DNA of 39,057 nucleotides from Desulfobacterales bacterium (GTDB lineage Bacteria; Desulfobacterota; Desulfobacteria; Desulfobacterales; Desulfobacteraceae). Position 1 is the first letter of the stretch; the number at the start of each line of letters is the position of its first letter. Where the stretch lies: contig JAKSAX010000457.1 in the NCBI GenBank assembly GCA_022361395.1, positions 1 through 39,057 on the forward strand. The letters run 5' to 3'. Under the pieces are notes generated by a model. The model did not search any database and was not told where the DNA came from. It worked only from the letters and a program-made list of their open reading frames with translations. Positions 4,234 to 25,290 of the stretch are shown here, one piece after another. A program made the translations under genes and the position numbers.

Positions 4234-4266
4234 TTGGTGGTCATCCGCTGTTGGGTATTATTTTAT

Positions 4267-5985: not shown

Positions 5986-5987
5986 CC

Positions 5988-6233
5988 TCAATTCTCTGTT
6001 CTCCTGCTGGTTCTGAGTACGGCAGCCACAAAGAGTACCGTACTTATTCCGGCTCCCACAGAGGCTTCGGTAAAGGCAACATCCACCGCCCCCATGATGG
6101 CCCATAAAAGACAGAGCAGGAAACTGTAGGCTCCGAACAGGATACCGGCGCTCAACAGGTCCTTGACAGCCAATGCCCCGGATCCGAACAAAACCACCAG
6201 GACCAGGATAATCATCTCTATCTGCCAGATCAT
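5988..6233 (-). CDS. MbhD-like / MrpA C-terminal-like subunit (DUF4040 type)
   Basis: An 81-residue membrane protein with two or three helices, ending in a FTEASVGAGISTVLFVAAVLRT segment. That matches the MbhD/DUF4040 unit that forms part of the MrpA C-terminus in other bacteria. It is the first gene of the minus-strand antiporter operon and has a very strong ribosome-binding site (AAGGAGG, eight bases before ATG). It is followed at 2 bp by the MbhE-MrpB fusion, so the MrpA C-terminal region is split here in Mbh style. Confidence 0.9.
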   Translation of the reverse strand: MIWQIEMIILVLVVLFGSGALAVKDLLSAGILFGAYSFLLCLLWAIMGAVDVAFTEASVGAGISTVLFVAAVLRTSRRTEN

Positions 6234-6369
6234 TGGTTTTCCTCCTTTTTGCGGGAGATCTTTCCCCGGGATTCACAACGGCAGGAGGGCAGGTGATCAA
6301 AATATATACAGCGGTACTCTTATGGATGTTGTAAATGCCTGCAGGGTAAGGGCTGAACAGTATGTCATC

Positions 6370-6399
6370 AGGATAAGATAGAGGCTTCCTCTTTGTCAA
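6370..6399 (-). promoter_or_regulatory. Candidate sigma-70-type promoter of antiporter operon
   Basis: On the minus strand TTGACA (6399-6394) is followed after 18 bp by TATCCT (6375-6370). It lies about 130 bp upstream of the first antiporter gene and points into it. The -35 box is perfect and the -10 box is weak (4 of 6). Confidence 0.4.
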
Positions 6400-7693: not shown

Positions 7694-7736
7694 TGATGCT
7701 GTCCCGGTTATCTGGCCCGGGACAGCATCATTTTTT
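7694..7736. terminator. Strong terminator between Tim44-like gene and trkH
   Basis: A perfect 14-bp stem (TGATGCTGTCCCGG at 7694-7707 with its complement at 7717-7730) is followed by six T on the plus strand. It ends the Tim44-like gene. The stem contains the stop codon of the convergent trkH gene (7730-7728). Confidence 0.9.
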
Positions 7737-9179: not shown

Positions 9180-10543
9180 CAGAAAAATCCCAGTTTCACG
9201 GTGAGCAGTTTTTCAAGTTTTTTCACTGCCCCCTGAACGGCAAAGAGAATGATCCGGTCACCCGGGGCCACCCGGCTGTCGCCGGCAGGGATGACAACCT
9301 GATCCTCGCTGATAATGCAGACCAGGATGGATCCTTTGGGAAAGGATAATTTTTTCAACGGTTTTTGGGTGATATCGGAGGTTTCAAGGGCAATGGCCTC
9401 CAAGAACTCCCCCCGTTCTCCAAAGATGGAAATATCGGATACCACATTGCCCTGCCGGATATCCTGAAGAATGGAAGAGACGGCAGATACCCTCGGGCTG
9501 ACGATTTTTTCAATGCCGATAGTGGATAGCAGGGGATAGTAGCTGGATTTTCCGATCCGGGTGATTGTATTGGCTACTCCCATACTTCTGGCCAGAAGTG
9601 AGACCAGGATATTGGTTTCATCGTCATCGGTCACGGAGACCACCGCATCCATCTGGCCTATATTTTCTTCCATGAACAGCTTTTGATCGGACCCGTCACC
9701 GTGCAGGACCACTGTTTTGTTCATCTTCCCGGACAGTTCATGGCACCGGTCAAGATCAGCCTCAACAATTTTTGCCTCGATTTTCAGTTTTTCCAGCGCC
9801 CTGGCCAGCTGGGCACCGATACGTCCGCCGCCTATGATCAATACTTTTCTGACAGGGCTGACCCTTACGCCGAGCAGGTTGAGCTTTTCCTCAAGGTTCC
9901 GGGTTTCACAAATAAAATAAACCAGGTCTCCGGCAAGGGTTTGGTCCTTGCCCCTGGGGACGATCACCTCGTTGTCCCTGATAATGGCGGCGATCAGCGG
10001 CCGTTTCAGGCCGAAGAATGTGTGAAATTCAGACAGTTCCATCCCGGCAATGGGGGAGTCCTCCTCAAGACGGATGCCCACATATTTGACCTTGCCATTT
10101 ACAAAATCTCCCGTGTCTCTGGCCTGGGGCACATCCATCAGCCTCTGGATGGTTTTCACCACCTCGGCTTCAGGATTAATAATAGTGTCAATACCGGGGT
10201 TCTCCTTTTTAAAATGGGAATGAAAGGGTAAGAATTCTTCATTCCGCAGGCGAACCAGTTTCCGGGTCAAAGGAGACAGCTGGTTGGCGATCAGGCAGGC
10301 CACGATATTGATCTCATCAGAATCTGTCACAGCCAGGAGAATATCCGTATCCCTGATACCTGCCTCAGTGAGAATGTCCGGGCTGCTGCCCGAGCCTGTA
10401 ATCACCTGAACATCCAGGTCTTCGGCAATTGCGCGGCAGGCACCTGCATCCTGGTCAATCACCACAACCGCCTTGCTTTCCAGGGTGAGCCGGCTGGCAA
10501 TATTATATCCGACTTCTCCTGCACCAATGATGATTATTTTCAA
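9179..10543 (-). CDS. trkA: Trk potassium uptake regulatory NAD-binding protein TrkA
   Basis: A 454-residue cytoplasmic regulator with two tandem RCK units. Each has a Rossmann NAD(H)-binding fold (GAGEVG at 7-12; IGGGRIGAQLA near 237) followed by an RCK_C domain. The DTDILLAVTDSDEINI and MDAVVSVTDDDETNI segments are typical. It binds TrkH and gates K+ flux in response to nucleotides. It is the first gene of trkA-trkH. Confidence 0.96.
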   Translation of the reverse strand: MKIIIIGAGEVGYNIASRLTLESKAVVVIDQDAGACRAIAEDLDVQVITGSGSSPDILTEAGIRDTDILLAVTDSDEINIVACLIANQLSPLTRKLVRLRNEEFLPFHSHFKKENPGIDTIINPEAEVVKTIQRLMDVPQARDTGDFVNGKVKYVGIRLEEDSPIAGMELSEFHTFFGLKRPLIAAIIRDNEVIVPRGKDQTLAGDLVYFICETRNLEEKLNLLGVRVSPVRKVLIIGGGRIGAQLARALEKLKIEAKIVEADLDRCHELSGKMNKTVVLHGDGSDQKLFMEENIGQMDAVVSVTDDDETNILVSLLARSMGVANTITRIGKSSYYPLLSTIGIEKIVSPRVSAVSSILQDIRQGNVVSDISIFGERGEFLEAIALETSDITQKPLKKLSFPKGSILVCIISEDQVVIPAGDSRVAPGDRIILFAVQGAVKKLEKLLTVKLGFF

Positions 10544-11661: not shown

Positions 11662-11763
11662 ACGCCACCTTTCCGGGTTGCATTAAAATCCTATTGTCAG
11701 AAGTAAGCTGAAAGGGTGGGCCCGAAACAGGTACTATACCGGAGAAAACAGGGCAGGTCTTCA

Positions 11764-12276
11764 ATGAAATCCGACAGGACCGGAAAAAAACAGGGTGTAA
11801 TCCATTTTTGTGTGACCTTTTTGCTGACATTTTTCTTCTGGGTGCTTTTTTCCGGCAGGTTTGACGGTTTTCACCTGGGCCTGGGCGTTGTCTCCTGCCT
11901 TATGGTTTCAGGCCTGACACGCCGGCTTGTGTTTTACGGCGACGCGTCCGGAGGCCTGTTCATAGCTGCCAGGTTTTTAAGATACCTTCCCTGGCTGGTT
12001 TACCAGATACTCCTGGCTAACCTTCATCTTCTTTACCTGACCTTTCATCCGAGGATGATGGATAAGATCAATCCCCGGATTATCCGGTTTGACACCTCTC
12101 TTAAAAGCGACCTGTCCAGGACCACCTTTGCCAATTCCATTACCCTGACACCGGGAACCATTACGGTATATGCAGGGGTTATGGGCGGCTTTGCCGTCCA
12201 CTGCATTGACGAGCATTCAGGCCGGGCATTACCCGGAGCCATGGAAAAGCGGATCTCAGAGGTGTTTCGTGAATGA
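11764..12276 (+). CDS. mrpE: Na+/H+ antiporter subunit MrpE
   Basis: A 170-residue MnhE/MrpE subunit with two N-terminal helices (about 12-50) and a helix near 66-92. The family signature NSITLTPGTITV is followed by a short cytoplasmic domain ending in an HCIDE segment. ATG at 11764 is preferred; a GTG at 11716 would add 16 atypical residues. It overlaps mrpF by 8 bp. mrpEFG supplies exactly the subunits missing from the minus-strand antiporter operon 5.5 kb away. Confidence 0.92.
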   Translation: MKSDRTGKKQGVIHFCVTFLLTFFFWVLFSGRFDGFHLGLGVVSCLMVSGLTRRLVFYGDASGGLFIAARFLRYLPWLVYQILLANLHLLYLTFHPRMMDKINPRIIRFDTSLKSDLSRTTFANSITLTPGTITVYAGVMGGFAVHCIDEHSGRALPGAMEKRISEVFRE

Positions 12277-12589: not shown

Positions 12590-12928
12590 ATGTCTCTTCT
12601 GATTTCATTTTTAATGATAGCCGGGCTGGTCTTCTTTACCGGAGGGGCTATCGGAATTGTCAGGTATCCGGATTTTTACTCAAGGCTTCATCCGGCCGGT
12701 AAACTGGACACAGGCGGCCTGGTTATTATCTTATCTGCCGCCGCCCTTTATACTGTCCAGCCGCTTACGCTTGCGGCAATCATGACATCGATAAAGATTC
12801 TGCTCATCCTTATCTTTGTTTTTGCCACCAGTCCGACAGCCATCCATGCCATAGTGGATGCCGGTGTAAGAGCCGGACTCAAGCCCTGGAAGAAAGAAAG
12901 GGCAGCCAGGGGAAAACAGGGGAGCTGA
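12590..12928 (+). CDS. mrpG: Na+/H+ antiporter subunit MrpG
   Basis: A 112-residue MnhG/MrpG subunit with three helices (about 3-24, 43-58 and 61-80). GIVRYPDFYSRLHPAGKLDTGG and the TSPTAIHAIVDAG segment are diagnostic. A GGGGGGAGA ribosome-binding site precedes ATG. It is the last gene of mrpEFG and is followed by a bidirectional terminator. Confidence 0.94.
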   Translation: MSLLISFLMIAGLVFFTGGAIGIVRYPDFYSRLHPAGKLDTGGLVIILSAAALYTVQPLTLAAIMTSIKILLILIFVFATSPTAIHAIVDAGVRAGLKPWKKERAARGKQGS

Positions 12929-12951
12929 CCGGAACCTGCCAGATAAAGGGT

Positions 12952-12990
12952 AAAAAAAAAGGCCTGCACCACAATCGGTGCAGGCCTTTT
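12952..12990. terminator. Bidirectional terminator between mrpG and CBS gene
   Basis: A 12-bp stem (AAGGCCTGCACC at 12959-12970 with its complement at 12977-12988) has a 6-base loop. It is flanked by nine A on the left (a T-run on the minus strand) and TTTT on the right. It serves the convergent mrpG and CBS-domain genes. Confidence 0.93.
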
Positions 12991-13011
12991 ATATGGTTAG
13001 ACTGTTATGCT

Positions 13012-13566
13012 TTAGTTAACCAGTTCACTGACCTGGTCAAATAAATCGGCAAGTCTCAGGATGCCCACAACCACATCCCCGTCAAGAACGAGAAGGGATT
13101 GGTGGCAGCCCAGAATAACCTGGTGCACAGCTTCTGCAACCGGTGCGTCCTGGGGCACGTACTCCCCTTCCGAGGGGGTGTACATTACATCCTTAACAGT
13201 CAGTCTGGATGCGTTTTTAACCAGTTCTTCCATGGATTCGTCCCAGAGTTCCAGCTTGTCCACGAGGGAGGTGAGAAACTCCATGTTGAATCCGAACCTG
13301 GACAAACCGATGCTGTTGGTGTCCCTGGCATGCTCAAACTGGCGGTACTTAGGTTCAAGCGCTTTAAGGATATCACGGAATCCCAGCTTGCCTACGATGT
13401 TCTGATTCTTGTCAAATGCAAGAACAGCACGGTGCTTGTGGTGGTACTTTGTGTCGGACTGGGCCGCCTTCAAAGCTTTGATCGCATCGACCAGAGACGC
13501 ATCCTCTGATACGGTGGCATAGTCAGACAGCGGAATCATCAATTCATTGACTTTTTTAGCTTTCAT
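13012..13566 (-). CDS. CBS-domain pair protein
   Basis: A 184-residue cytoplasmic protein with two CBS motifs (about 6-68 and 124-180), separated by a 50-residue linker longer than usual. CBS pairs bind adenine nucleotides and often regulate transporters. It starts 22 bp after the DASS transporter stop, has an AAGGAG ribosome-binding site, and is the last gene of its operon, so regulation of that transporter is likely but inferred. The second motif ends in VVVGILRLADLFDQV, typical of CBS. Confidence 0.9.
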   Translation of the reverse strand: MKAKKVNELMIPLSDYATVSEDASLVDAIKALKAAQSDTKYHHKHRAVLAFDKNQNIVGKLGFRDILKALEPKYRQFEHARDTNSIGLSRFGFNMEFLTSLVDKLELWDESMEELVKNASRLTVKDVMYTPSEGEYVPQDAPVAEAVHQVILGCHQSLLVLDGDVVVGILRLADLFDQVSELVN

Positions 13567-13588
13567 CGTATTCCACTCCTTAGTTTTC

Positions 13589-15058
13589 CTATTGAGTCAA
13601 AATAGGCATTCCCATGACGGGCCAGATGATAAGAACGGCAATACCTGTTACTATCATAAGAATAACAGAGGCCGGGATTCCATACAAGAAAAACTCTCCG
13701 GTGGTGAATTGCTTGGAATCATATGCAATGGCATTGGGGGCCGCACCCACCAGCAGGAGGAAGGGCATACCGGCGACCACCAGGGCGGCATACAGAATAA
13801 CATCCGGTGCCACGCCAAGGTAAGGTGCGATAACCAGGGCCACGGGCAGGGAAATCGCTATGGCTGCCACGTTCATGATAAAGTTGGTCATCATCATGAT
13901 AAAAAAGGAAATACTCATTACAAAGATGAACCAGTGTGAATCCTGGAACATGGTCAGCCAGTTGATGGCCAGCCACTCTGCAGCACCTGTTTCCCATAGG
14001 CAGAACCCGATACTCATGGCACCGCCGAACAGCAGCATGATATTCCAGGGTACCGCTTCCAGGTCCTTGATATCAAGGAGGCGGAAGATGAAAAATGAAA
14101 TAGTGGATACCAGGATGATGGCGTTTTTGTCCAGGACATCCAGGGCCGGAATAAACTGCTTGACGGACATGATAAAGATGCAGGAGAAAATGATCACGGC
14201 GGCAAGGATTTCATCTTTGGTGATTTTCCCCATGGCACCGCTGAGTTTTTTTGCCTTTTCCCTCAGGCCCGGTATGGTTTTCTGTTCCGGTTTGAAGAAC
14301 ACCATGAAAAAGCCCCAGAGGATAAAGGTCATGGCCCATCCGATGGGGAACATATACCAGGTCAGTTCGAAGAAGGTAACGTTTCTGCCGACGATGTCGG
14401 TGAAAAAACCAAGGGCAACCGCACCGCGGGCCGCACCCAGCAGGGTGACGATAGAACCGGCACCGGCCACAAAGGCCATACCCATGAACAGGCCCTTGCC
14501 GAATTTGGTGGGCTTGTCATCTTCCGTATACATGGCGTAAATGGTCATGAGCAGGGGAAACATGGTTGCGGCAACCGCTGTATGGGCCATGATATGGGTC
14601 AGGGCCGAGGTAACCACAAAGCATCCCAGATATATCATACTGGTTTTTTCTCCGACAATGGCCAGCATTTTATAGGCCAGGCGCTTGGTCAGGCCTGTCT
14701 TGGTAAACACCATGCCGATGACAAGGGAGGCAAAGATAAAAAGAACCGAGGGGGTCATGAAATCGGTAAAGGCTTTTTTCGCGGGCCGGATCATGAATAA
14801 AACCTGTAATACACCGATTGTCAGACTGGTTACACCGATGGGAACGACCTCAAACACCCACCAGGTACCGGCCAGCAAAAATACGGCCAGGGCGCCTTGT
14901 GCTTCAGAGCTTAAAACAAAGCGTTTACCTGTGGGATCCACTGCATCCGGGAAGGGCGGGGCATAGTTTACAATTGCAAACAGAGCTATGCCTGTTAAAA
15001 TAAACAGGATCCGTTTCCAGTCCACTTGTGTTGCTGAGGTTGTACTTTCAGTTGTCAT
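13589..15058 (-). CDS. DASS-family (SLC13-type) anion:Na+ symporter
   Basis: A 489-residue polytopic membrane protein of the divalent anion:Na+ symporter family. Members carry dicarboxylates, citrate, phosphate or sulfate; in a sulfate reducer sulfate is a reasonable guess but not shown. WWVFEVVPIGVTSL near 66-79, VPWNIMLLFGGAMSIG near 336-351 and VGAAPNAIAY near 437-446 match the family. The two SNT ion-site signatures are altered, to AHT (158-160) and MNV (395-397). Start ATG has GGAG upstream. It is followed closely by a CBS-domain gene and preceded by a pseudo-cytidylate-kinase gene. Confidence 0.92.
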   Translation of the reverse strand: MTTESTTSATQVDWKRILFILTGIALFAIVNYAPPFPDAVDPTGKRFVLSSEAQGALAVFLLAGTWWVFEVVPIGVTSLTIGVLQVLFMIRPAKKAFTDFMTPSVLFIFASLVIGMVFTKTGLTKRLAYKMLAIVGEKTSMIYLGCFVVTSALTHIMAHTAVAATMFPLLMTIYAMYTEDDKPTKFGKGLFMGMAFVAGAGSIVTLLGAARGAVALGFFTDIVGRNVTFFELTWYMFPIGWAMTFILWGFFMVFFKPEQKTIPGLREKAKKLSGAMGKITKDEILAAVIIFSCIFIMSVKQFIPALDVLDKNAIILVSTISFFIFRLLDIKDLEAVPWNIMLLFGGAMSIGFCLWETGAAEWLAINWLTMFQDSHWFIFVMSISFFIMMMTNFIMNVAAIAISLPVALVIAPYLGVAPDVILYAALVVAGMPFLLLVGAAPNAIAYDSKQFTTGEFFLYGIPASVILMIVTGIAVLIIWPVMGMPILTQ

Positions 15059-15150
15059 TGTAGTTTACACTCCTTTTCAGTACAATTTCTATTCAGTTAA
15101 ATCATGTTGTTATTTGTTGAAGCCCTTTTCCATTTCCGGCAAAAAGACCT

Positions 15151-16065
15151 CTATTGTTCTTTTTTCCTATTGTCTCCCCGGTTCCTGGAGAACCGCCCGA
15201 AATCAAGGCTCCGGACAAGGTTTCCCTGGTAATAATTGGGTCCTATTTTGGTTTTGACGGACCTGACGCCGGATATTGCTGATACTGTTTCAATTATTTC
15301 CTGCTGGATCTGTACCAGATTCATTACCTTCCTGTCCAGGGTCACCGTAACATTCCCCATGGTTGAATGGACCAGAAAACCGCTTCCGATGGACGCCAGT
15401 GCAAGTGCTGCATCCGCATCTATCCTGAAGTCAAAGAGTTCCTGCGCTCTGGGGGGGGGCGGGGCAAAGGGTGCATCCTCCAGTAAGCGGCGGACCTGCC
15501 CGGCCCATTCGTCTGCCTGTAACACATCCATCCGGGAATCGGGCTGATCGTCGGAGGGAATAACCAGATCGCAGGGTGGAGGGTCACAGGATGACAGGTG
15601 GGGCAGTGATTTTATCCACCGGGCAGCGTCCCGGTCTGCTTTTTCAATGGCTGACAAAGCAGTGTTTTCGGAATACCTGCCTGTTTCCACAGCCCGCCGG
15701 ATGCGGACGGCCCTGGAGGCAGAGACCTGTATCCGGAATACATGGGTTACTGAGGCTGGTATCAGGTGGGAGATGATCCCGACCAGTATGCAATTATCTG
15801 CGATGAGCAGGTTGGAGAGGGTTTTCTTCAGCCCGGACAGACATTTTTCCCTGTCATGGGTAAAGTTGTTAAAGGGGATGGATTTTCCCCGGGTGACCTT
15901 GGAGAGGAGATCTTTTTTTAACCCATGCTCCCTGTGCGTCATCCCGAGAATATCATGGTCGGAGTATACAGAACATCCCAGCGTCTTTTTCAGCGCTTCA
16001 ATCATCAGCCCGGAGGCTGCATACTCATCGGTTATGATGGCAATTGCCGGCACGTCACCCGCCAT
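15151..16065 (-). CDS. Cytidylate-kinase-like / BON-like protein
   Basis: A 304-residue soluble protein. Residues 7-170 have the layout of cytidylate-kinase-like proteins (AIAIITDEY at the N-terminal strand, SDHDIL near 35-40, FRIQVSASRAVRIRRAV near 110-125, DRDAARWIK, CDLVIPSD near 165-172). The glycine-rich P-loop is missing, so kinase activity is doubtful. Residues 212-275 resemble a BON domain (GNVTVTLDRKV...ISGVRSVKTKI). It is paralogous to the first two domains of the protein at 20814-22040. The start is uncertain because no ribosome-binding site is visible. It sits directly upstream of the DASS transporter and may regulate it. Confidence 0.75.
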   Translation of the reverse strand: MAGDVPAIAIITDEYAASGLMIEALKKTLGCSVYSDHDILGMTHREHGLKKDLLSKVTRGKSIPFNNFTHDREKCLSGLKKTLSNLLIADNCILVGIISHLIPASVTHVFRIQVSASRAVRIRRAVETGRYSENTALSAIEKADRDAARWIKSLPHLSSCDPPPCDLVIPSDDQPDSRMDVLQADEWAGQVRRLLEDAPFAPPPPRAQELFDFRIDADAALALASIGSGFLVHSTMGNVTVTLDRKVMNLVQIQQEIIETVSAISGVRSVKTKIGPNYYQGNLVRSLDFGRFSRNRGDNRKKEQ

Positions 16066-16174
16066 GTTTCATGTTAAATCAATTAAATAGTCTGGGGGAT
16101 TACAGGCAAAGAGCATGCCAGATAAGAAATTGCTTTAATTTCAGCGGGAAGGTAAAGACCGGGATTGGGGTTGG

Positions 16175-16222
16175 AACGATTTGAAACGTTTTGAATCAAA
16201 CGATTTGAAACATTTTGATACG
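16175..16222. repeat. Two tandem 24-bp direct repeats
   Basis: Two adjacent units (16175-16198 and 16199-16222) each begin AACGATTTGAAAC and match at about 20 of 24 positions. They lie between the NifX-like gene and the cytidylate-kinase-like gene, about 110 bp upstream of the latter, a suitable place for an operator. Confidence 0.8.
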
Positions 16223-16234
16223 AAGCGGGTGTGG

Positions 16235-16597
16235 TTATATAAGCTGGCCTTCCACCATTCTCATGGAAAGGATGTCTCCGGACTTTAAGGTCCGGGTCTG
16301 CCATCGCTCAAAGGCATGGGTCCAGGCACCGGACACTGCATCAAAAACCTCAATCTCTTTCCATTTGATGAATTCATAGTATTCATCTTCAATGGCGCCG
16401 CAGATCAGGGTGTTGACATTTTCAGACAGGAGAATATGGCAGAGCTCATCTGCCGAAGACCTCGGCAATACAATGGTTTTCTTATCCTGGAGCATGGTTT
16501 TTTCCGAAGTCAGAAGAATAATCACCTCCGTTGCCAGGTCAAACCTGGGAACGATTTCTTCACCAAGCACGGGTATGGCTGTTTTGTGGATCAGCAT
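16235..16597 (-). CDS. NifX/NifB-type cofactor-binding-fold protein
   Basis: A 120-residue protein resembling the dinitrogenase iron-molybdenum cofactor-binding family (NifX, NifY, NifB C-terminus). AIPVLGEEIVPRFDLA fits the opening strand-loop, and NTLICGAIEDEYYEFIKWKEIEVF fits the later strand-helix. No nif genes lie in the window, so nitrogen fixation is not implied; relatives occur in many anaerobes in other roles. It starts 4 bp after the sigma-54 activator stop, so the two are co-translated. Family call moderate, function unknown. Confidence 0.7.
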   Translation of the reverse strand: MLIHKTAIPVLGEEIVPRFDLATEVIILLTSEKTMLQDKKTIVLPRSSADELCHILLSENVNTLICGAIEDEYYEFIKWKEIEVFDAVSGAWTHAFERWQTRTLKSGDILSMRMVEGQLI

Positions 16598-16601
16598 TGT
16601 T

Positions 16602-18032
16602 CTATTCGATTCCGTATTGTTTTATTTTACGCCATAGAGTGCTCCGGCTCATTCCTAAGGTTTCTGCAGCTTTGGCTTTTTTTCCATTGGCTTGTCTCAG
16701 GGCATCCATTATCATCTCCCGCTGAACTGACGCCCAGGTGGTATCCGGGTGGCGGGCCGGGCTGATACCGGGTTCCTCTGCTTTAACACCCGGGGCTGCT
16801 TCCGGAGGATGCGGTGGATCTGTCAGGTGGGCTGCAGGGAGCTGGGCCGTGGTATCCATGATGTAGGACGGCAGGTTCTCCGGCTCGACCATTGGGCCTG
16901 CCGCCACATTCACCGCATACTCAACGATGTTTTTCAGTTCCCGTATATTGCCCTCGTATTTATATCTCATCAGACAGCCCAGGGTCTCGTTGGAAAATCC
17001 CTTTATCCGCCGGTCCAGGTGCCTGCTGTAGTGGGTGAAAAAATGATCCAGAAGCAGGCGGATATCCCCCTCCCTCTCCCTGAGCGGGGGCATATGAATC
17101 CGGGCCACATTCAGACGGAACAGCAGGTCTTTTCTGAATTTTCCGATAGAGACCATTTGCTCAAGGTCCCTGTGGGTGGCTGCAATGATGCGGACATTGG
17201 CGTTAAATCCCTTGGTGGCCCCCAGAGGATAGATGATTTTATCATCCAAAAAGGTCAGAAGTTTGACCTGGAGGGGCAGCGGCAGATCCCCGATTTCCGT
17301 TAGAAAAATGGTACCGTTGTGGGCCAGTTTGAAACGGCCGGGTTTGTTTTCCACTGCGCCGGTAAATGCCCCTTTCCGGTGGCCGAAAATTTCGGATTCC
17401 AGCAGGGTTTCGGGCAGGGCGCCGCAGTTGATTTTTATAAAGGGGCCTCCGGCCCGCTGGGAGGTCTGGTGGATGGCCTCGGCCACCAGATCCTTTCCTG
17501 TTCCTGTCTCCCCTGTTATAAGAATTGAGGTCTCGCTCTGGGCAAGCATGGGCAAGGTCTGGAAGATTTCCTCCATTTTGGGGCTTCTGCCGATGATATT
17601 GGCAAAACTGTATGCCACATGTTTTTCCGGATCATTGGTCTCTATACTGCGCAGATCTTCAATGGTTTCTATATAACCCGTGATTTCACCAGACATGTCG
17701 ATGACCGGAGCTGTGGTGATGCGTATGGGCAGCTTCTGGCGATCCAGGTTGATCATGTCGCTTTTGCAGGATAAAGAGCGGTTGTCCCTGTGAAGGGCCA
17801 GTACCGGGCAATTGGTGATACAGGCCGAACTTCTCAATATGTTTCGGCACTGGATGCCACGTGCCATGTCCAGGGAAAAACCGGACAGGGCCTGGAAAAA
17901 CCGGTTCAGGTGTACCACCCGGCGGTTGCGGTCCAGCACCAGGATCCCCATGGGAATCTCATCCAGGATATGGGTGAAGTCCAGCGGTGAGCGCATGAGC
18001 GCGCTGATATGGGGGGGCAGGGTGTTTGGCAT
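16602..18032 (-). CDS. PAS-domain sigma-54-dependent transcriptional activator
   Basis: A 476-residue enhancer-binding protein. A PAS domain (about 18-130) has a cysteine cluster (C62, C71, C75), which suggests redox or metal sensing. A AAA+ domain spans about 145-385, with Walker A GETGTGKD (174-181) and the sigma-54 contact loop GAFTGA (221-226). A Fis-type helix-turn-helix covers about 435-476 (AKAAETLGMSRSTLWRKIKQYGI). In Walker B the usual Asp is Thr245 (FLTEIGD), with Glu246 kept. It activates RpoN promoters; targets are probably in this cluster, but I could not find a convincing -24/-12 site. There is no receiver domain. Confidence 0.93.
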   Translation of the reverse strand: MPNTLPPHISALMRSPLDFTHILDEIPMGILVLDRNRRVVHLNRFFQALSGFSLDMARGIQCRNILRSSACITNCPVLALHRDNRSLSCKSDMINLDRQKLPIRITTAPVIDMSGEITGYIETIEDLRSIETNDPEKHVAYSFANIIGRSPKMEEIFQTLPMLAQSETSILITGETGTGKDLVAEAIHQTSQRAGGPFIKINCGALPETLLESEIFGHRKGAFTGAVENKPGRFKLAHNGTIFLTEIGDLPLPLQVKLLTFLDDKIIYPLGATKGFNANVRIIAATHRDLEQMVSIGKFRKDLLFRLNVARIHMPPLREREGDIRLLLDHFFTHYSRHLDRRIKGFSNETLGCLMRYKYEGNIRELKNIVEYAVNVAAGPMVEPENLPSYIMDTTAQLPAAHLTDPPHPPEAAPGVKAEEPGISPARHPDTTWASVQREMIMDALRQANGKKAKAAETLGMSRSTLWRKIKQYGIE

Positions 18033-18244
18033 AGGCCGTCGTTTGACCTCAATGGCTGTCTGATTTTCCTTGTTGCATTCCGGATGGAAGTATTATCACC
18101 TTGGTTGGGAATTATCAAATAAATTCATATGATAACGCGGACAGGGGAAGGCCGGCCCGAATATCAGGCCCTCCCTGGTGCCTGTCACTGATTTCGGACC
18201 ATCCTGCCAATCCGGCTCAATTCTTCCGGTTCAAGCCAAACGGG

Positions 18245-18673
18245 TTAGGACCCGTATCGCTGCAATATATCTTTTATCTTATCTTCCATCCGGTGTTCAA
18301 CGATGAGCATTTTATCCGCTTTGGCCTGCTTTATCTTTTTTTCCAGGGACTCAATATCAGCCGGTTTTTCCAGGAAATCAGTCGCACCTATTTTCATGGC
18401 TTCAACTGTTTTTTCCACCGTGGCATAACCGGTGAGCAGAATGATCTGTTGTTCGGGCTTTTTGTCTTTAATGGCTTTTAAAGCATCCATTCCGTCTATT
18501 TCAGGCATCTGAAAATCCATAACAATGGCATCAAACGATTCGGTTTCAATGAGGGAGAGGGCTTTGCCGGCGGATTCAGCTGTGGTTACTTCCATTCCCC
18601 GGGCTGTCAACCGTTCCGACATGATTTCCAGGAATTCTTTTTCATCGTCTACCAATAATACCTTTTCTGTCAT
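18245..18673 (-). CDS. Single-domain response regulator (receiver)
   Basis: A 142-residue CheY-like receiver with no output domain. The acidic pair is in VLLVDDEKEF, the phospho-acceptor Asp53 in VMDFQMPEIDGMDAL, then LLTGYAT and the EKPADI lysine motif. A basic helical tail (about 120-142) extends past the receiver. The start follows AGAGGAG. It lies 53 bp after the ATP-site-less kinase-like gene and upstream of the sigma-54 activator, so it may relay phosphate within the cluster. The 212-bp gap 18033-18244 holds only a GC-rich imperfect inverted repeat near 18138-18186. Confidence 0.92.
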   Translation of the reverse strand: MTEKVLLVDDEKEFLEIMSERLTARGMEVTTAESAGKALSLIETESFDAIVMDFQMPEIDGMDALKAIKDKKPEQQIILLTGYATVEKTVEAMKIGATDFLEKPADIESLEKKIKQAKADKMLIVEHRMEDKIKDILQRYGS

Positions 18674-18726
18674 AATACACTCCTCTTTAAAGTTATGTTA
18701 TTGCCGCATATATCCGGCAATTAAGG

Positions 18727-19401
18727 TTAATTTGGGTTCGGCAGGATTAAGCCGAACCGTTTTTCATCAATATTAATTTCAATGGAAATGTCCAGATGGC
18801 GCAGAAGCGTCTGCGTCTTTTCCGAGTCAACCAGGGTTTCCATTGAGGTTTGTAAAATCATATCCGGCGTAAACCAGATGCCGGGTGCGCCGGACCGGGT
18901 GTCAAAAGAAATAGTCAATTGTTCTGTTTCATCCGATTTAAGACAGGCTGCTTCAACGCATCTCCAGACAAGGGCCTGGAAAAATGAAAGACAGGTATTG
19001 ATCTGAATGGGGGCATCGGGCGGAATCAGAGTCACGGCCGCACCCTTCATCTCTATGAGCCGGGAGCCCATATCCAGTATGAACGCCAGTGTTCTTTCAA
19101 GATCTATGGCCTGCCTGGGATGATCGGTGCTGTGTGAAAACCGGTTGAGTCTTTTTACGATATTGTCTGCTTTTTTCACATGTCTTTCAATACGTCCGGA
19201 AACATCTGCAACCCGTCCGGAAGACAGGGTGTCTCCGTTTTGGGCCATTGCTGCCAGATCCTGCAACAGGCCGGCATTTTCATTAATGATGGCCAGGCTG
19301 TTTTTTATCTCATGGGTGGCAGAGGCCGTCAGCTTCCCGAAAAATTCAAGCGTGGTGCCGTTTAACAGGTCTGTTGATCGTCTGTCAGCTGTTGATGCCA
19401 T
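18727..19401 (-). CDS. Histidine-kinase-like protein lacking ATP-site motifs
   Basis: A 224-residue protein with a recognisable dimerisation/phospho-acceptor helix (ASATHEIKNSLAIINENAGLL, His30) and a second long helix. The C-terminal half has the size of a HATPase domain but lacks the N-box Asn and the DxGxG loop, so it cannot be a normal kinase. It resembles histidine phosphotransferases derived from kinases. The start at 19401 (ATG) is preferred over a TTG at 19446. It lies between a full histidine kinase and a lone receiver, which suggests a phosphotransfer or scaffold role (inferred). Confidence 0.75.
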   Translation of the reverse strand: MASTADRRSTDLLNGTTLEFFGKLTASATHEIKNSLAIINENAGLLQDLAAMAQNGDTLSSGRVADVSGRIERHVKKADNIVKRLNRFSHSTDHPRQAIDLERTLAFILDMGSRLIEMKGAAVTLIPPDAPIQINTCLSFFQALVWRCVEAACLKSDETEQLTISFDTRSGAPGIWFTPDMILQTSMETLVDSEKTQTLLRHLDISIEINIDEKRFGLILPNPN

Positions 19402-19449
19402 ATTTATGTCTGCCCTTATTATTGTGCTTTGATAATCCAGTATCAATAT

Positions 19450-20817
19450 TTATTCAGCTGTGAGCGGCAGTGTCAGGGTGAAACAGGTTCCCTTGCCCAC
19501 CTTGCTTTTTACCTTGATATCACCGCCGATTTCCTGTACCAGCCCGTATGTAATGGACAATCCCATTCCAGTGGAGAAATGATCCTCTTTTTTGGTAAAA
19601 AAAGGCTCAAATATTTTTATTATATCATGATTGCTGATCCCGCAGCCAGTGTCTGATACTTTTATGATAACTGCAGCACTGTTTTTAAGCCGGACTTGAA
19701 TATTGAGGTTTCCTCCGTCATCCATGGCTGCGATGGCATTGTTGAACAGGTTCAGGAATATCTGCTGGAGACAGCCCCTGTCGCATTGGAATTTGGAAAC
19801 CTCATCATGGATATCTATGGATACGCGGATTGATTTCCGCTCTGTTTCCCGGTTAAGAAAAACAAGAACCTGGTTAATGACCTCCCTGATATCCAGATCT
19901 TGGATGTTCAGTTCCATATCCCGGGCAAAGTCAAGTAACTGCCTTGTGATGGTGCCGCACCGGTTCACTGCGTCAAGGATATCCTCAGTCAATTCATTGA
20001 GGCGCGGGTCATTATCTCCGGCCAATAACAACAGGTCACTCATCAGCCCGGCTTTCTGGCTGATTATGGCCAGCGGGTTGTTGATTTCGTGGGCCACACC
20101 GGATGCCAGCCGGCCGATGGATGCCAGCTTGTTGGCATATTCAGCCTGGTGCAGTGCCTCACTCCGCTTCCGGTCCGCCCGGTGTATCCGGTCCACAAGA
20201 TAGGTGGCACTTCCCATGATGGACACAAGGACGACTATGATGCTGATGACCAGGTAGCCCATCAGTTTGAGCCGGGGTTTAAACCATGATCCGGTCAGTT
20301 CGCTTTTGTTGCGCGCCTGGGCTATAAACAGTTCAGTACCCTGCATCCGGGCATAACCAAGGATAATCTCCTCTCTTTGTTGCACGATTGTTTTCAGAGT
20401 GGCCTTTTCATCGCCTGGAAGATACCGTTCTATGGCTGCTGATGTTCCGGGTTTTCCCAAAAAGCGGGAAGGGGTCATCAGAACCCCGTTCCGGTCTATG
20501 ATAAAAATATCATTGTGCTCTTTCAGTCGTCCGGTATATTCCAAGGCTGCGGCTGCCGGGTTCTCAGCCCCTGAGACAGCGGCTGCGGCAAAGCCTGCCA
20601 GCTGCGATACATCCTTTTGAAATTCAATTTCCCTGGCCTGCCGGGTAATATTAAATTCAATCAGCATGAAGATAAATAGGGGGAGGAGTGCGGCAAAAGA
20701 GGTAAGGCCGACAATCATCTTCCACTTACGTGCAAAGTTGAGTTCCGAATGACCGTGGCCACCGGCTCTGTCATGGTGATCCCAGAAGGCGGGTTTAAGT
20801 TTTCCCAGTTTTTTCAT
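19450..20817 (-). CDS. Membrane-bound sensor histidine kinase
   Basis: A 455-residue two-component sensor. TM1 is about 34-54, a 130-residue periplasmic sensor region (Cache-like by size) about 55-183, and TM2 about 184-207. HisKA has His243 in ASGVAHEINNPLAII, and HATPase_c has an N-box near 353-363, DTGCGI (389-394), FEPFFTKK and GMGLSI. All catalytic motifs are intact. It overlaps the upstream receiver fusion by 4 bp, making that protein its likely partner; it may also feed the lone receiver at 18245. The ligand is unknown. Confidence 0.94.
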   Translation of the reverse strand: MKKLGKLKPAFWDHHDRAGGHGHSELNFARKWKMIVGLTSFAALLPLFIFMLIEFNITRQAREIEFQKDVSQLAGFAAAAVSGAENPAAAALEYTGRLKEHNDIFIIDRNGVLMTPSRFLGKPGTSAAIERYLPGDEKATLKTIVQQREEIILGYARMQGTELFIAQARNKSELTGSWFKPRLKLMGYLVISIIVVLVSIMGSATYLVDRIHRADRKRSEALHQAEYANKLASIGRLASGVAHEINNPLAIISQKAGLMSDLLLLAGDNDPRLNELTEDILDAVNRCGTITRQLLDFARDMELNIQDLDIREVINQVLVFLNRETERKSIRVSIDIHDEVSKFQCDRGCLQQIFLNLFNNAIAAMDDGGNLNIQVRLKNSAAVIIKVSDTGCGISNHDIIKIFEPFFTKKEDHFSTGMGLSITYGLVQEIGGDIKVKSKVGKGTCFTLTLPLTAE

Positions 20818-22040
20818 ACCGGTATTCTTTTTCCTGAATTGAATTTGTCATGGGCATCCTTTATCAGTCCGCCCAACACGTTGATATCAACCGGTTTTTG
20901 CAGGTAGGAAAAGGCCCCGAGCTCCATACACATCTGCCTGTCATTTTCCGATCCGTGGCCGGTCAGGATAATCACCTCGATCTCAGGCCGGATTTTCTTG
21001 ACCCGGTTTAAAACTTCCATCCCGTCTATACCGGGCATTTTGAGATCAATAATCATCACTTCAGGGTCGTCATTGTGAACCAGTTCAAGGGCTGATTCTC
21101 CATCATAGGCCACCACACAGCCCATATCCCTCATTTTCAGCCTTTCAGAAAGTGTCTGGACAAACTCCTGTTCATCATCCACCAGTAAAATTCTGGACGG
21201 CAGGCCGGTATCGTGCTTGCGGTAAATGTTGGCGGCCTGTTCCGGCTGCTCTACAAGGATTTCAACCGAATTTACACCCGGTATCCCTGCTGCAATGGTG
21301 TTGAGTTCGGTTTCCAGCCGGTTCAGCATAAGTACTTTTTTATTAATAAAGAGCGTAAGCGCTCCGTTCCTGGACCGGATAGTCACATTATGGCCGGCGC
21401 TCACAAGGGCGGTGCCAACTTCGGATTCCAGAATAAAATCATCCAAAGCGGCTTTGGAGGCCGGTGTGGGCCTGAGTGCATCCTTGAGCAGATTCTCTTC
21501 AATCAGGACCGATGCCTTTCCCGTTGCGGTTTTTCCCATGGGCAGGACCATATCATAGCGATCCGGATTCCAGGGATCCGGATCGGTAAAAAGGGCCTGG
21601 GTCCAGGCAGACCGGCAAAGATCATCACCGGTGATGATTTGACCGGCTTCATCCCGGGACACCCCCTGTTCAGCCATTGCTGTTTCCAGGCGGAATTCAT
21701 TGTTGGCAATCATGCAGACCCTGAGGGCATGGCTGATGCGCCCCGGTATCAGGGATGCGCAGAATCCGGTGATTATCAGGCCGTCTTTTTTTAATAATCT
21801 TGCAACGGCGAGTCTGAGATATGCAATAAACCTCTCTTTTTCAAAGGTGAACTGGTTAAACACTGAAAATTTGGACGAAAATGCGGAATTGATCCGTTCG
21901 GCAGGTATGCCGGACAGTTTTGATGCCTGTTCGAGGATGGTTTCATCTGATATCAATTGATAGCCGGTGCTGGCGGCAATATCTGCGGCTACCGTTTTTT
22001 CCTTGCAGAATATACCGCTGAATATGGTTATGACAGACAT
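20814..22040 (-). CDS. Pseudo-cytidylate-kinase / BON-like / receiver fusion
   Basis: A 408-residue three-part protein. About 1-170 is cytidylate-kinase-like (SVITIFSGIF, ISDETILEQASKLSG, LRVCMIANNEFRLETAMAEQG, YDMVLPM) without the glycine-rich P-loop. About 195-265 is BON-like (NGALTLFINKKV...IPGVNSVEILV). About 282-400 is a response-regulator receiver with DDE near 288-290 and phospho-Asp332 (IIDLKMPGIDGMEV), plus the Lys of LQKPVDI. The start at 22040 follows GGAG; a TTG at 22058 is less likely. It is coupled to the sensor kinase by a 4-bp overlap. The first two parts are paralogous to the protein at 15151-16065. I know of no assigned function for this combination. Confidence 0.82.
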   Translation of the reverse strand: MSVITIFSGIFCKEKTVAADIAASTGYQLISDETILEQASKLSGIPAERINSAFSSKFSVFNQFTFEKERFIAYLRLAVARLLKKDGLIITGFCASLIPGRISHALRVCMIANNEFRLETAMAEQGVSRDEAGQIITGDDLCRSAWTQALFTDPDPWNPDRYDMVLPMGKTATGKASVLIEENLLKDALRPTPASKAALDDFILESEVGTALVSAGHNVTIRSRNGALTLFINKKVLMLNRLETELNTIAAGIPGVNSVEILVEQPEQAANIYRKHDTGLPSRILLVDDEQEFVQTLSERLKMRDMGCVVAYDGESALELVHNDDPEVMIIDLKMPGIDGMEVLNRVKKIRPEIEVIILTGHGSENDRQMCMELGAFSYLQKPVDINVLGGLIKDAHDKFNSGKRIPV

Positions 22041-22088
22041 GATTTTCTCCGTTGACAAAAGAGCTGCATATCTTCTGTGTGGTTATTA

Positions 22089-22676
22089 TTATCCGCTTTC
22101 ATCGATTAAAATGGCTTTGCAGGATGCCATCAGGTCATTGTATAAAGAGCCGGCATGATACAGGTTGTAAGTGTTCAGCCGCGCCACACCGTCCACCATG
22201 GCAAAAAGGATCATGGCGGTATGACGTGGTGAGGCAGTTTTTACGGAGCCGTCCGATATCCCCAGAACGATTCCCTCTTCAAATATATCCAGCAGGCAAT
22301 TGTAGATCTTTTCAAGATATTCAAGACAGTCCGGGTTGGTTTCTGCCATCTGATACGGGAAATGCCTGTGTATCAGCAGAAAATGATCTTCCATTTTACC
22401 GGCAAGATTAAGGTAAAACGTGATAACACCCTGAACCATTTCCAGTCCGTTCCGGAAGCGGGTTTCATTTTTAAAGGCCTCAAAAGAGGTGCGCATGTTT
22501 TCCTGGACATTGTCCAGGATATGTAAAAAAATATCTTCTTTATTTTTAAAATGATGAAAAATGGTTCCCCTTGCCGCTCCGGTGGCCTCAGACAGGTCGG
22601 CCATGGATGTGGCGGAAAAACCGTTTCGTGAAAAAAGCCGTGTGGCGGCTTCAAGTATTGCATTTCGTTTGGACAT
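22089..22676 (-). CDS. TetR-family transcriptional regulator
   Basis: A 195-residue repressor-type protein. The N-terminal helix-turn-helix (about 8-50: ILEAATRLFSRNGFSATSMADLSEATGAARGTIFHHFKNKEDIF) is classical TetR; the rest is an all-helical ligand-binding/dimer domain. A clear palindromic operator lies 24 bp upstream, in the gap shared with the divergent PEP-synthase-like gene, so it probably controls itself and that gene. Downstream, the receiver fusion begins after only 48 bp with no terminator seen, so the TetR promoter may drive the whole minus-strand signalling cluster. Confidence 0.94.
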   Translation of the reverse strand: MSKRNAILEAATRLFSRNGFSATSMADLSEATGAARGTIFHHFKNKEDIFLHILDNVQENMRTSFEAFKNETRFRNGLEMVQGVITFYLNLAGKMEDHFLLIHRHFPYQMAETNPDCLEYLEKIYNCLLDIFEEGIVLGISDGSVKTASPRHTAMILFAMVDGVARLNTYNLYHAGSLYNDLMASCKAILIDESG

Positions 22677-22699
22677 ATGTTACCTAATATCAAATTCTC

Positions 22700-22719
22700 A
22701 ACCGAACGATCGGTCGGTT
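22700..22719. promoter_or_regulatory. TetR-type palindromic operator
   Basis: Palindrome ACCGAACGATCGGTCGGT (core 22701-22718) with arms AACCGA and TCGGTT around CGATCG. It is flanked by a second pair, ATATCAAA and TTTGATAT. It lies between divergent genes, one of which encodes a TetR regulator. Confidence 0.85.
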
Positions 22720-22764
22720 TTGATATAGATATTGAAATCAAAAACAAAAGTCAAGGCAAAAAAG

Positions 22765-24000
22765 ATGGATATCCAGATTCCTGAGAAGGCGAAACTTCTT
22801 GAAAAACTGAAGCAAAACGGATTTAACGTGCCGGATTTTATCTATGTGCCGTCCAGTGTTTTTAAAAATGAAAATTTTGACCGCCTCGAAGCATTTCTGG
22901 ACAGCCATAGGGAGAGTTATAAAGTCATCGCCAGGAGTGCCCATCCCATGGAGTCCGAGTATAAGGGCGGAACATTCGACTCCCTGGACACCTATGCTGA
23001 TATAGGGGGGATTAAATATGCCCGGAATAAAATCATCAAGCTTGCGACCACAGCCAAGCGATTGTCCATCAGCCGGCAGCAGGTCTTTAATAACGCCCCG
23101 GAAATCGATATTGAGGAGATGGGTGTCGTTGTCATGCCTTTTGTAAACGGGACCAATGTCATGGCTAAAATGATCGGACAGAACTGGGAGTTCGGATATT
23201 GCCGGGACCGTTCCCATAAATTTCAAAACGAGCCCCATGTGACTGAGGTTCCCCATGATCGAAAATTGCTGGCTATGTCCAGGGAGATTCAGAAAGTCCT
23301 GGGATTTAAATGCGAAATTGAGTTTATTATCGGGTCTGACGGCGATATCCATGTGGTACAGGCAAAAGATATTTCCGATATTGAAACCCTGGGAGAAAAG
23401 GACAGTGCCCTGTCCGTTAAACTTGACGGTATCCGCCGGATAAGGAAGCGGCGCAACTACAGGGAAAGACCGGTTTATGTCATGGACAACAAGGCATTTT
23501 ACATCAATGTCATCAGCCAGTGTGAGACCCTTGTCCAGTCAGGGGGCGATGCGGAAGAGGGTATTGAGCGGATCCTGTCTTTCATAGCGGCATATGAAAA
23601 AGACTTTGAGTCCTTTGCATTGCGTCACCAGCGGTTTGCCGTTCTCGGATATTGCATCCAGGATGCAGGGGAGACCTACCAGATTGCCAATCATTATCTT
23701 GATGACACGCCTGAACTCCAGGAAGTATTGTCAAAGGCCCTGCACAGCAACTTGTACAAGATCGATATCTTTCTGGCAGAGGCCGATACCCTGATTGCAA
23801 AGGATAAGTTCAGGATTAACCTGTGCAGCCATGATGCTTACGGCATTGATACCGTCAGGAATCCGATATGGTCGGCCTATTGGCATATTGACCGGCACGA
23901 TGAGATTGTAAAAGAATTTATGCGCCTTGGTTTCAAAACCGGGGACACCATCGGCATTGATATCAATCCGGAGGGACTCCCCATTGTTTCAAGGCACTAA
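22765..24000 (+). CDS. PEP/pyruvate-binding (PEP synthase N-domain-like) protein
   Basis: A 411-residue protein whose first half resembles the ATP-grasp nucleotide-binding domain of PEP synthase/PPDK. YKVIARSAHPMES near 52-64 corresponds to the AVRSSA motif, GGTFDSLDTY to the loop that follows, GVVVMPFV to a core strand, and EIEFIIGSDGDIHVVQAKDI to the metal-binding strand and VQAR motif. The phosphohistidine and PEP domains are absent, and the second half (about 230-411) is unrecognised. The start at 22765 has AAGG upstream; a TTG at 22732 is the alternative. Control by the TetR operator just upstream is likely. It may phosphorylate or ligate an unknown substrate; unproven. Confidence 0.75.
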   Translation: MDIQIPEKAKLLEKLKQNGFNVPDFIYVPSSVFKNENFDRLEAFLDSHRESYKVIARSAHPMESEYKGGTFDSLDTYADIGGIKYARNKIIKLATTAKRLSISRQQVFNNAPEIDIEEMGVVVMPFVNGTNVMAKMIGQNWEFGYCRDRSHKFQNEPHVTEVPHDRKLLAMSREIQKVLGFKCEIEFIIGSDGDIHVVQAKDISDIETLGEKDSALSVKLDGIRRIRKRRNYRERPVYVMDNKAFYINVISQCETLVQSGGDAEEGIERILSFIAAYEKDFESFALRHQRFAVLGYCIQDAGETYQIANHYLDDTPELQEVLSKALHSNLYKIDIFLAEADTLIAKDKFRINLCSHDAYGIDTVRNPIWSAYWHIDRHDEIVKEFMRLGFKTGDTIGIDINPEGLPIVSRH

Positions 24001-24127: not shown

Positions 24128-25258
24128 CTATATATTGTCCCTGCATTCGAATTCAATGCGGTCATTGTATTTCTGGGCCAGCCCCGGCTCACTGCCCGGT
24201 ACGTAATCTGCGCCATTGCCTTTTAAAATACTATTGTTCATTCTGTTTACAAGGCCGTCAAAGAACGCCTGTCCACCCGGCATAGCTTTTATCTGATCGA
24301 ATGTAACACTGTTTTGGAGAGCCTCTTCTTTGCTTGCTGCATATCCGAAATAAAGTCTTCCGCCTTCAAGTTCAACCCGCTCATCTGAGGTGGAAAAGTC
24401 ATGAATCGAGTTTGCGCAAAGAACAGTCGAATCTCCGTATGAGGCATTATCGGAATAGGCATTGAACATCATCAGGCTGTTGCTTCCGACTTTACCGTTA
24501 AGAATGGTTGCGCCATGGGCCCCGATTACACGGTCACCAAAGGTTGTACTGATAAGAATCGTATTTTCCTGGGCATTTGAACCAAATCCCAGCCTGGAAT
24601 TGATAACCACGGCATTTGGGGTAATGTTTGCGTTTTGGCCGACGCCGATTTCACCCTCAAGGCATGCATAATCATTGGTATGGGAATCATCACCGGTGTC
24701 AAGGGAGGTGGGGGTGTTTTCCCTGAGTATGGCAGAGTAGTATTTTTCCCTGAGGTCCAATTGTTTTTGGTTATATTTATCAAGAATGTCTTTATTTCCG
24801 CCGGCAATGGTGTGTTTAAATTCAAAATCTTCAAATCTGATTACCACATCACCATCATTTAAGGTGATGTCACTTATATCCTTTTGCCAGATATAACCGC
24901 GGCAACCCACCGTAACATTTGTTGCATTTGCAAGGTCAATCACGCCAAAGGCGCCCAGGTTGACATTGTCTCCGACAATACCATGGTAAAGAGATCCCTT
25001 CCCGGCTTTTGAATTTTTAATCCTTACAGCCAGATCGGTTTTGCTGGGTGCATGACAATGAACCATTGAATGATCTTCCATTGTCGTATTGGTAAGATGG
25101 ATTCCGGAATAATCGGTCTCGTCATCCCGGACAGTGACTTTTGATAATTTCGTCCCGCTGTTTACATTAACATTTCCTACCAAAGTCGAATCTGCAACAC
25201 TGATGTCTTCTTCAAATTTGGGACTATGCCCTTCCAGGGTTCCTATTATATTTACCAC
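24128..25258 (-). CDS. Left-handed beta-helix (hexapeptide-repeat) protein
   Basis: A 376-residue protein with repeated short strand-turn patterns typical of left-handed parallel beta-helices (DSTLVGNVNVNSGTKLSKVTV, GEIGVGQNANITPNAVVINSRLGFGSNAQENTIL, GDRVIGAHGATILNGKVGSN). The start is GTG at 25258, because GGAGG lies six bases upstream; the frame extends to 25276 but would run through that site. It shares the GxGSNAQENT and HG-INxxVG segments with the divergent protein at 25679 and is a clear paralogue. Such folds occur in acyltransferases, but I see no defined catalytic signature. Function unknown. Confidence 0.8.
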   Translation of the reverse strand: MVNIIGTLEGHSPKFEEDISVADSTLVGNVNVNSGTKLSKVTVRDDETDYSGIHLTNTTMEDHSMVHCHAPSKTDLAVRIKNSKAGKGSLYHGIVGDNVNLGAFGVIDLANATNVTVGCRGYIWQKDISDITLNDGDVVIRFEDFEFKHTIAGGNKDILDKYNQKQLDLREKYYSAILRENTPTSLDTGDDSHTNDYACLEGEIGVGQNANITPNAVVINSRLGFGSNAQENTILISTTFGDRVIGAHGATILNGKVGSNSLMMFNAYSDNASYGDSTVLCANSIHDFSTSDERVELEGGRLYFGYAASKEEALQNSVTFDQIKAMPGGQAFFDGLVNRMNNSILKGNGADYVPGSEPGLAQKYNDRIEFECRDNI

Positions 25259-25290
25259 GTTTTCCTCCTGCAACACGATTTACAGCCGTA

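Follow-up and report, generated by a model that had tools for sequence, protein, structure and literature searches.

Two conserved modules in a gene cluster probably devoted to the control of sulfate uptake in a Desulfobacterales bacterium

The ten genes and their predicted regulatory sites

The 39,057-nucleotide stretch of DNA analysed here (the window; contig JAKSAX010000457.1 of assembly GCA_022361395.1, from a Desulfobacterales bacterium of the family Desulfobacteraceae) contains a cluster of ten genes that all lie on the minus strand, spanning positions 22676 down to 13012. They encode, in this order, a TetR-family regulator, a cytidylate-kinase-like protein (CK1), a histidine kinase, a DHp-type protein, a lone receiver, a PAS/sigma-54 activator, a NifX-like protein, a second cytidylate-kinase-like protein (CK2), a DASS transporter and a CBS protein, as an earlier note made from the sequence alone had described them. 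The cluster consists of two conserved modules in three likely transcription units and is not one novel operon. The first module comprises the five genes from tetR to the lone receiver and is widespread across the phylum; the second opens with the activator and NifX-like genes, followed by a −24/−12 promoter with upstream GTTTCA repeats before CK2, DASS and CBS. The window comes from a 6.57-Mb draft genome (completeness 95.7%, contamination 8.9%) that carries a dsrA gene scoring over the cut-off. The features of the cluster are listed below.

22701..22718, minus strand: predicted TetR operator, ACCGACCGATCGTTCGGT, between tetR and a divergent gene for a 422-residue protein
22089..22676, minus strand: TetR-family regulator (TetR_N, 63.2 bits), which precedes CK1 or SulP-CK1 in most mapped loci
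20814..22040, minus strand: CK1, a cytidylate-kinase-like domain with a degenerate P-loop, a BON-like domain and a receiver; ATG start, the open reading frame (ORF) opening at 22058
19450..20817, minus strand: membrane sensor histidine kinase, HisKA and HATPase, with about 130 residues between two predicted membrane spans and a 4-base overlap with CK1
18727..19446, minus strand: DHp-type protein that retains the phospho-accepting His but has no ATP-binding domain that can be recognised; candidate phosphotransferase
18245..18673, minus strand: stand-alone receiver of 142 residues, no output domain found; D53 invariant in 54/54
16602..18032, minus strand: PAS/AAA+/HTH_8 sigma-54 activator, GAFTGA present, Walker B Asp changed to Thr, Cys-rich PAS
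16235..16597, minus strand: NifX-like (Nitro_FeMo-Co) small protein, profile match below the cut-off; C53 and C66 invariant in 12/12
16172..16221, minus strand: predicted upstream activator sites, tandem pairs of the GTTTCA-N4-GTTTCA type, about 50 to 100 bases above the promoter
16105..16120, minus strand: predicted sigma-54 promoter, TGGCATGCTCTTTGCC, score 10/12, the best such site in 12900-23000
15151..16065, minus strand: CK2, the second cytidylate-kinase-like protein, with a BON-like domain and without a receiver
13589..15058, minus strand: DASS-family transporter, probably a Na+-coupled sulfate importer
13012..13566, minus strand: CBS-pair protein
12957..12990, minus strand: terminator-like hairpin of 15 pairs with a T tail, 3' of the CBS gene (consensus scan only, which gives 17 such sites in the region against 11.9 expected)

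Together, the TetR operator, the sigma-54 promoter, the GTTTCA sites and the hairpin at the CBS end delimit three likely transcription units, namely tetR to the lone receiver, the activator with the NifX-like gene, and CK2-DASS-CBS. The single ten-gene unit implied by the earlier note thus falls into three, one under the TetR operator, one made up of the activator and NifX-like genes and one under sigma-54; furthermore, its first five genes turn out to be a module whose usual partner is a transporter of an unrelated family, SulP.

A −24/−12 site scoring at least 10/12 is found upstream of CK2 in 12/12 loci (10 in the window, 11-12 in the other eleven), with a chance rate of 1.9% per upstream region in first-order Markov shuffles; in one locus (L084; relatives' loci carry L numbers, genomes G numbers) it falls inside the mechanically called CK2 ORF, so that the true CK2 start must lie further in. 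At the same threshold, such sites were present upstream of some DHp (3/66), activator (1/12) and CBS (1/26) genes, and none was found upstream of tetR (0/48), histidine kinase (0/68), NifX-like (0/12) or divergent (0/30) genes. A sigma-54 promoter directly before DASS, SulP or CK1 was considered and rejected (0/24, 0/48 and 0/59, respectively). Tandem GTTTCA pairs are likewise present in 12/12 CK2 loci, with a score of 10/12 in one and 11 or 12 in the rest, compared to 0.4% of shuffles reaching at least 11 and 5.5% at least 10, and no other site reaches 11 within the 11.5 kb of the window scanned. The TetR site of the window is one base off the sites upstream of tetR in the SulP-linked loci L103, L105, L106 and L109, and a score of at least 13/16 is reached in 42/47 tetR upstream regions versus about 3% of shuffles.

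The activator resembles a bacterial enhancer-binding protein in its GAFTGA loop, kept in 14/14 module activators, and in the adjacent −24/−12 promoter. In place of the usual Walker B Asp-Glu, Thr-Glu is found in 14/14 (12 by pattern, 2 by reading); among 21 other sigma-54 proteins in the loci, this position is Asp in 16, Glu in one, Thr in one (a module-type fragment, L159) and unreadable by pattern in three. Two points weigh against the regulatory scheme of this section: the change in Walker B could leave the activator with weak ATPase activity, and the operator and activator-site motifs were scored on the same sequences that defined them.

Both kinase-like proteins belong to the Cytidylate_kin2 family (PF13189), by a Pfam score above the cut-off and a CMP-kinase-like fold, and share family score and fold with PDB entries 3hdt and 3fdi. 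They differ from these in the absence of the P-loop Gly (0/59 CK1 and 0/12 CK2), in a Cys18 kept in 57/59 CK1, and in the fusion to a BON-like domain and, in CK1, a receiver. Without the Gly-Lys of an active nucleotide kinase, the nucleotide-kinase domain of CK1 appears to be dead. The BON assignment is tentative, given its profile matches (E 0.15 in 2/17, E 0.19 in 1/10; OsmY, E 0.076), and the structure comparison barely covers the part after residue 205, that is, the BON-like part. In the DHp-type protein, the motif H-[ED]-x-x-N is kept in 61/61 homologues (57 by pattern, 4 by reading), HisKA is matched in 15/17 and HATPase in 0/17; this protein thereby combines a DHp domain with a conserved His and the lack of an ATP-binding domain, as in ChpT and Spo0B, and may be capable of phosphotransfer.

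The DASS protein is covered over most of its length (residues 49-484) by the Na_sulph_symp domain at 139 bits, which places it in the DASS/SLC13 family, and TIGR00785 scores 193 bits, just below its 198.6 cut-off. The two SNT triplets of VcINDY form its carboxylate/sodium site; aligned to them are AHT and MNV, the same in 23/23 DASS proteins. Judged by this alignment, the transporters of these clusters are a subfamily distinct from the VcINDY (carboxylate) type, still within DASS. Entries of human SLC13A1, a sulfate transporter, are also among the matches of this comparison.

Gene order in relatives and a proposed exchange of transporters

Conservation of gene order in relatives, the point on which the earlier note had staked its interpretation beforehand, was found in regions from the family, the order and the phylum. 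Chance juxtaposition was rejected, with gene order kept in regions from 40 families. Within the family, the CK2 query matched in 59/86 genomes and the DHp query in 81/86 (E 0.001), many of the weaker matches probably being other Cytidylate_kin2 proteins and other kinases; the genome contig scan yielded one relative with a match, Desulfobacter latus. The layout map of 40 family regions plus L062 contains the following arrangements (HK, histidine kinase; REC, receiver; S54, activator), the remainder being short contigs or mixed.

TetR-CK1-HK-DHp-REC with S54-NifX-CK2-DASS-CBS: the window, L063, L064
Relay followed directly by DASS-CBS: L068, L081
REC-HK-DHp-REC-DASS-CBS, without a kinase-like domain: L071 to L077 (L076 cut within DASS)
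S54-NifX-HK-(REC)-DHp-CK2/receiver fusion-REC-DASS-CBS: L084, L085, L086, L100
S54-NifX-CK2-DASS alone: L062 (D. latus), L088
TetR-SulP-CK1-HK-REC-DHp-REC: L089 to L092, L096 to L099

As these layouts show, each half of the window cluster can be found without the other. The two kinase-like proteins, which the earlier note had converging on one transporter, do share the cluster, but are divided between the modules: CK1 goes with the relay, and CK2 with the sigma-54/DASS unit.

CK1 matches at E 1e-30 occur in 205/291 genomes of the order. SulP is the recognised gene directly before CK1 in 36/40 regions of the order-wide sample (one region per family from 40 families, picked among the strongest CK1 matches), and, among all CK1 genes examined, 48/59 directly follow SulP. 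In the phylum sample, CK1 was detected at E 1e-70 in 36/297 genomes, 28 of them outside the order, where SulP adjoins CK1 in 15/20 regions (map read by eye). The other five are L161 and L170, cut at the contig end, L167 and L168, without SulP, and L175, with REC-CBS-DASS instead. Both transporters are present in one cluster in L107, L171 and L172.

Several lines of evidence suggest that the relay can be exchanged between transporters as a control module of sulfate uptake. In a midpoint-rooted tree of 59 CK1 and 5 outgroup rows (18 of the 61 inner branches are weak), the six DASS-linked CK1 rows form one set together with L066, the contig of which is too short to tell (support 99/96), and the next branches, L069 and L103, are SulP-linked. 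No match to PF00916 (SulP) was detected in the genome of the window, the control matching in 9/14 genomes. Across the 86 family genomes, the long form of SulP, with two-piece PF00916 matches, is found in 1/16 genomes with a DASS-linked relay compared to 47/70 others (Fisher p = 8e-6). Counting G050 as having long SulP gives 2/16 (p = 1e-4), and leaving it out gives 1/15 (p = 2e-5). Of the 20 genomes whose DHp type is closest (at least 149 bits), G043, G044 and G049 have the relay at a contig end and G074 has it linked to SulP; these four were counted among the 70 others. Under this model, the relay would formerly have served SulP, which was lost from the locus in this lineage and replaced by DASS. 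The main argument that both transporters carry sulfate is that one relay goes with two unrelated transporter families, and sulfate is accordingly the likely cargo of the window DASS. The proposal of the earlier note that the genes form a dedicated sensing and uptake-control system for an anion transporter is thus supported, with sulfate as the likely anion, apart from the single unit that it implied.

Certain observations weigh against this exchange. Absence of SulP is not proven by a draft of the completeness and contamination given above. G050 is a doubtful case, as its SulP is cut off and its DASS fragment sits on the opposite strand at the end of a contig. The contrast shrinks to 7/16 versus 50/70 (p = 0.04) when any PF00916 protein is counted, and it was by eye that genomes were listed and SulP forms classed as "long". 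Moreover, CK1 lacks a preceding SulP, with neither a contig end nor a DASS substitute to account for it, in L108, L113, L119 and L139 (4/40) and in L167 and L168 (2/20); the swap leaves these six loci unexplained.

The part of the window kinase between the membrane spans is about half as long as that in the SulP-linked kinase of L090 (dCache match below the cut-off). The idea that the sensor was shortened along with the transporter swap was dropped, given a 482-residue kinase in the SulP-linked L103 and a 585-residue kinase in the DASS-linked L081.

A proposed phosphorelay and its possible outputs

Dissimilatory sulfate reduction, a driver of much of the carbon turnover in marine sediment, begins with the uptake of sulfate. 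The explanation that we consider reasonably probable as a whole is one of two-module control of sulfate uptake, through a phosphorelay and a sigma-54-dependent supply, with DASS having replaced SulP. The membrane histidine kinase would sense an outside signal, probably sulfate, and phosphate would pass from it to the receiver of CK1, on to the His of the ChpT- or Spo0B-like DHp-only protein, and finally to the lone receiver. The apparently dead nucleotide-kinase domain of CK1 could perhaps add an adenylate or adenosine phosphosulfate (APS) signal. TetR would set transcription of the first module; the PAS activator, possibly sensing together with the NifX-like protein, would bind the tandem GTTTCA sites and fire the sigma-54 promoter of CK2-DASS-CBS, so that the second module sets the supply of transporter. 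What the sequences themselves show is the components and how well they are conserved, both types of site, the nesting of the DASS-linked relays within the CK1 tree and the SulP-receiver fusions; the order of phosphotransfer, the ligands, the cargo, the transcription units and any effect on the transporter are inferred.

In the CckA-ChpT-CtrA/CpdR and Spo0B phosphorelays, a kinase, a receiver, a DHp-type His protein without ATP binding and a second receiver act together. The window has the same four elements but differs from these systems in the lack of a hybrid kinase, in a receiver carried by a kinase-like protein, in a last receiver without output and in the linkage to a transporter. Alternatively, the DHp-only protein could be a receiver phosphatase or a kinase-dimerising scaffold. 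HisKA kinases use E/D-x-x-N after the His to dephosphorylate receivers, and these residues are kept here; given that the His itself is kept in 61/61 and that two or three receivers per cluster suit a His-Asp-His-Asp relay, we regard such a role as somewhat unlikely.

The relay would likely act by direct contact between proteins, its target being the transporter or the CBS protein, because no receiver of the window relay has a DNA-binding domain; indeed, the domain search of the window proteins found no output domain on any receiver. Fusions of SulP to receivers in other genomes point in the same direction. In L140, a single 846-residue chain comprises Sulfate_transp, STAS and Response_reg domains, and such a fusion is present in 4/8 genomes of its family (its own counted), three others having an unfused SulP and one no match. 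The fusions examined are these.

L152, L153, L154, L155 and L169: SulP-STAS-receiver fusions of about 845-865 residues, from two lineages, L169 (864 residues) lying in a genome outside the order

The receiver Asp is kept in 5/5 of these, and the fused receiver is similar to that of CK1 (146 and 147 bits). A receiver of the CK1 type therefore has three settings: joined to the kinase-like protein, standing alone (L071 to L077) or joined to the permease. This suggests that the receivers act directly on the transporters.

The alternative is ordinary transcriptional control: the relay would set the amount of transporter through a DNA-binding regulator encoded within the cluster or close by, or else through the sigma-54 activator. 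The published model of such clusters (Woehlbrand et al. 2025, PMC11887813) has response regulators, once activated, sitting at promoters, and receiver-sigma-54 regulators adjoin some of the DASS and SulP loci studied here (L072, L074, L075; L173, L174, L176), an arrangement that would permit transcriptional output and counts against direct contact. Against this alternative, the window receivers lack an output domain and the window sigma-54 activator lacks a receiver, relay and DASS-CBS occur in L068 and L081 with TetR as the sole DNA-binding protein recognised by the query set inside the cluster, and SulP-receiver fusions exist. Overall, ordinary transcriptional control appears unlikely. In L081, a LysR-like frame was noticed by eye beyond the divergent gene, which qualifies the TetR-only description of that locus. 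In L173, L174 and L176, a histidine kinase and the receiver-sigma-54 regulator stand before the SulP-relay cluster in place of TetR.

The further-reaching form of the direct-contact reading is that the relay throttles sulfate transporters themselves and not transcription, that receivers on a dead kinase reading adenylate or APS dock on SulP or DASS, and that the module can move between unrelated transporter families; this we put forward tentatively. Since the conserved relay keeps to the transporter function even when the transporter comes from another, unrelated family, and receivers are at times part of the permease chain, direct control of sulfate uptake by phosphorylation becomes open to experiment, with defined promoters, operators and proteins to work on. 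Escherichia coli offers a parallel in DcuS with DctA and DauA, where an anion transporter is coupled to a two-component sensor and a SulP-family protein is involved. There, the transporter informs the sensor, whereas the direction in the window would be from receiver to transporter.

Import of an organic anion of the dicarboxylate type, sensed by the relay, was left open by the earlier note and agrees with VcINDY-type transporters being the nearest solved relatives of the DASS protein, but is very improbable given that the same relay usually serves SulP, that it stands with DASS in a genome having dsrA and no detectable SulP, that both SNT triplets are replaced in 23/23, and that DASS proteins of such clusters are treated as sulfate transporters in the part of PMC11887813 covered.

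Published clusters and neighbouring genes

The earlier note knew of no description of this gene combination. One was published in 2025 (PMC11887813, as far as covered): it reports DASS and SulP clusters of sulfate reducers (Desulfobacteraceae) with two-component, CBS (DASS) and TetR genes, as in the loci described here, and by its DASS, two-component and CBS genes the window cluster is of the same kind as these published sulfate-uptake clusters. In the same portion, the sensor kinases of both cluster types are described as alike, sulfate is proposed as the signal, a TetR operator is given for SulP, and both transporters are found to be abundant and constitutive in Desulfosarcina variabilis; such abundance, in our view, is at least as easily reconciled with regulated activity as with regulated synthesis. 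The published model has regulators acting at promoters, whereas we favour direct contact with the transporter for the window cluster. Sigma-54 is mentioned once in the main text, for catabolic-module regulators in general, and the words "cytidylate", "phosphorelay" and "NifX" do not occur there; neither does the portion covered mention cytidylate-kinase-like proteins, a DHp-only protein, a SulP-receiver fusion or a DASS sigma-54 promoter. The literature search on the kinase-like family returned no publication, text searches of the paper on the sigma-54 regulome of D. vulgaris found no mention of sulfate transport, those of the Marietou 2018 survey of sulfate transporters found nothing relevant, and nothing matching SulP with a phosphorelay or receiver was found among the matches listed. 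The kind of cluster is thus already known, and the inner architecture given here was not found among the matches listed in the literature searched, so far as these sources were covered.

No structural RNAs were detected in the window at Rfam gathering scores, and no tRNAs by ARAGORN. The divergent neighbour of tetR encodes a 422-residue protein without a Pfam match (22732-24000, plus strand), with homologues in 30/82 examined sequences (the window counted), SulP-linked loci among them. At the other end, DASS is flanked by TrkA/TrkH potassium uptake genes and Mrp/Mnh-like antiporter subunits (7728-10543, 1211-6399, 11716-12276); a TrkA/TrkH pair lies near DASS in 10/23 DASS loci, the window counted, and this recurrence suggests a shared ion-balance neighbourhood. 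Beyond the cluster lie a gene for a protein without a Pfam match (24128-25276, minus strand) and one for a hexapeptide-repeat protein (25679-27097, plus strand). A 470-residue gene product resembling the latter, as judged by size and first residues, recurs near DASS in L081 and L088.

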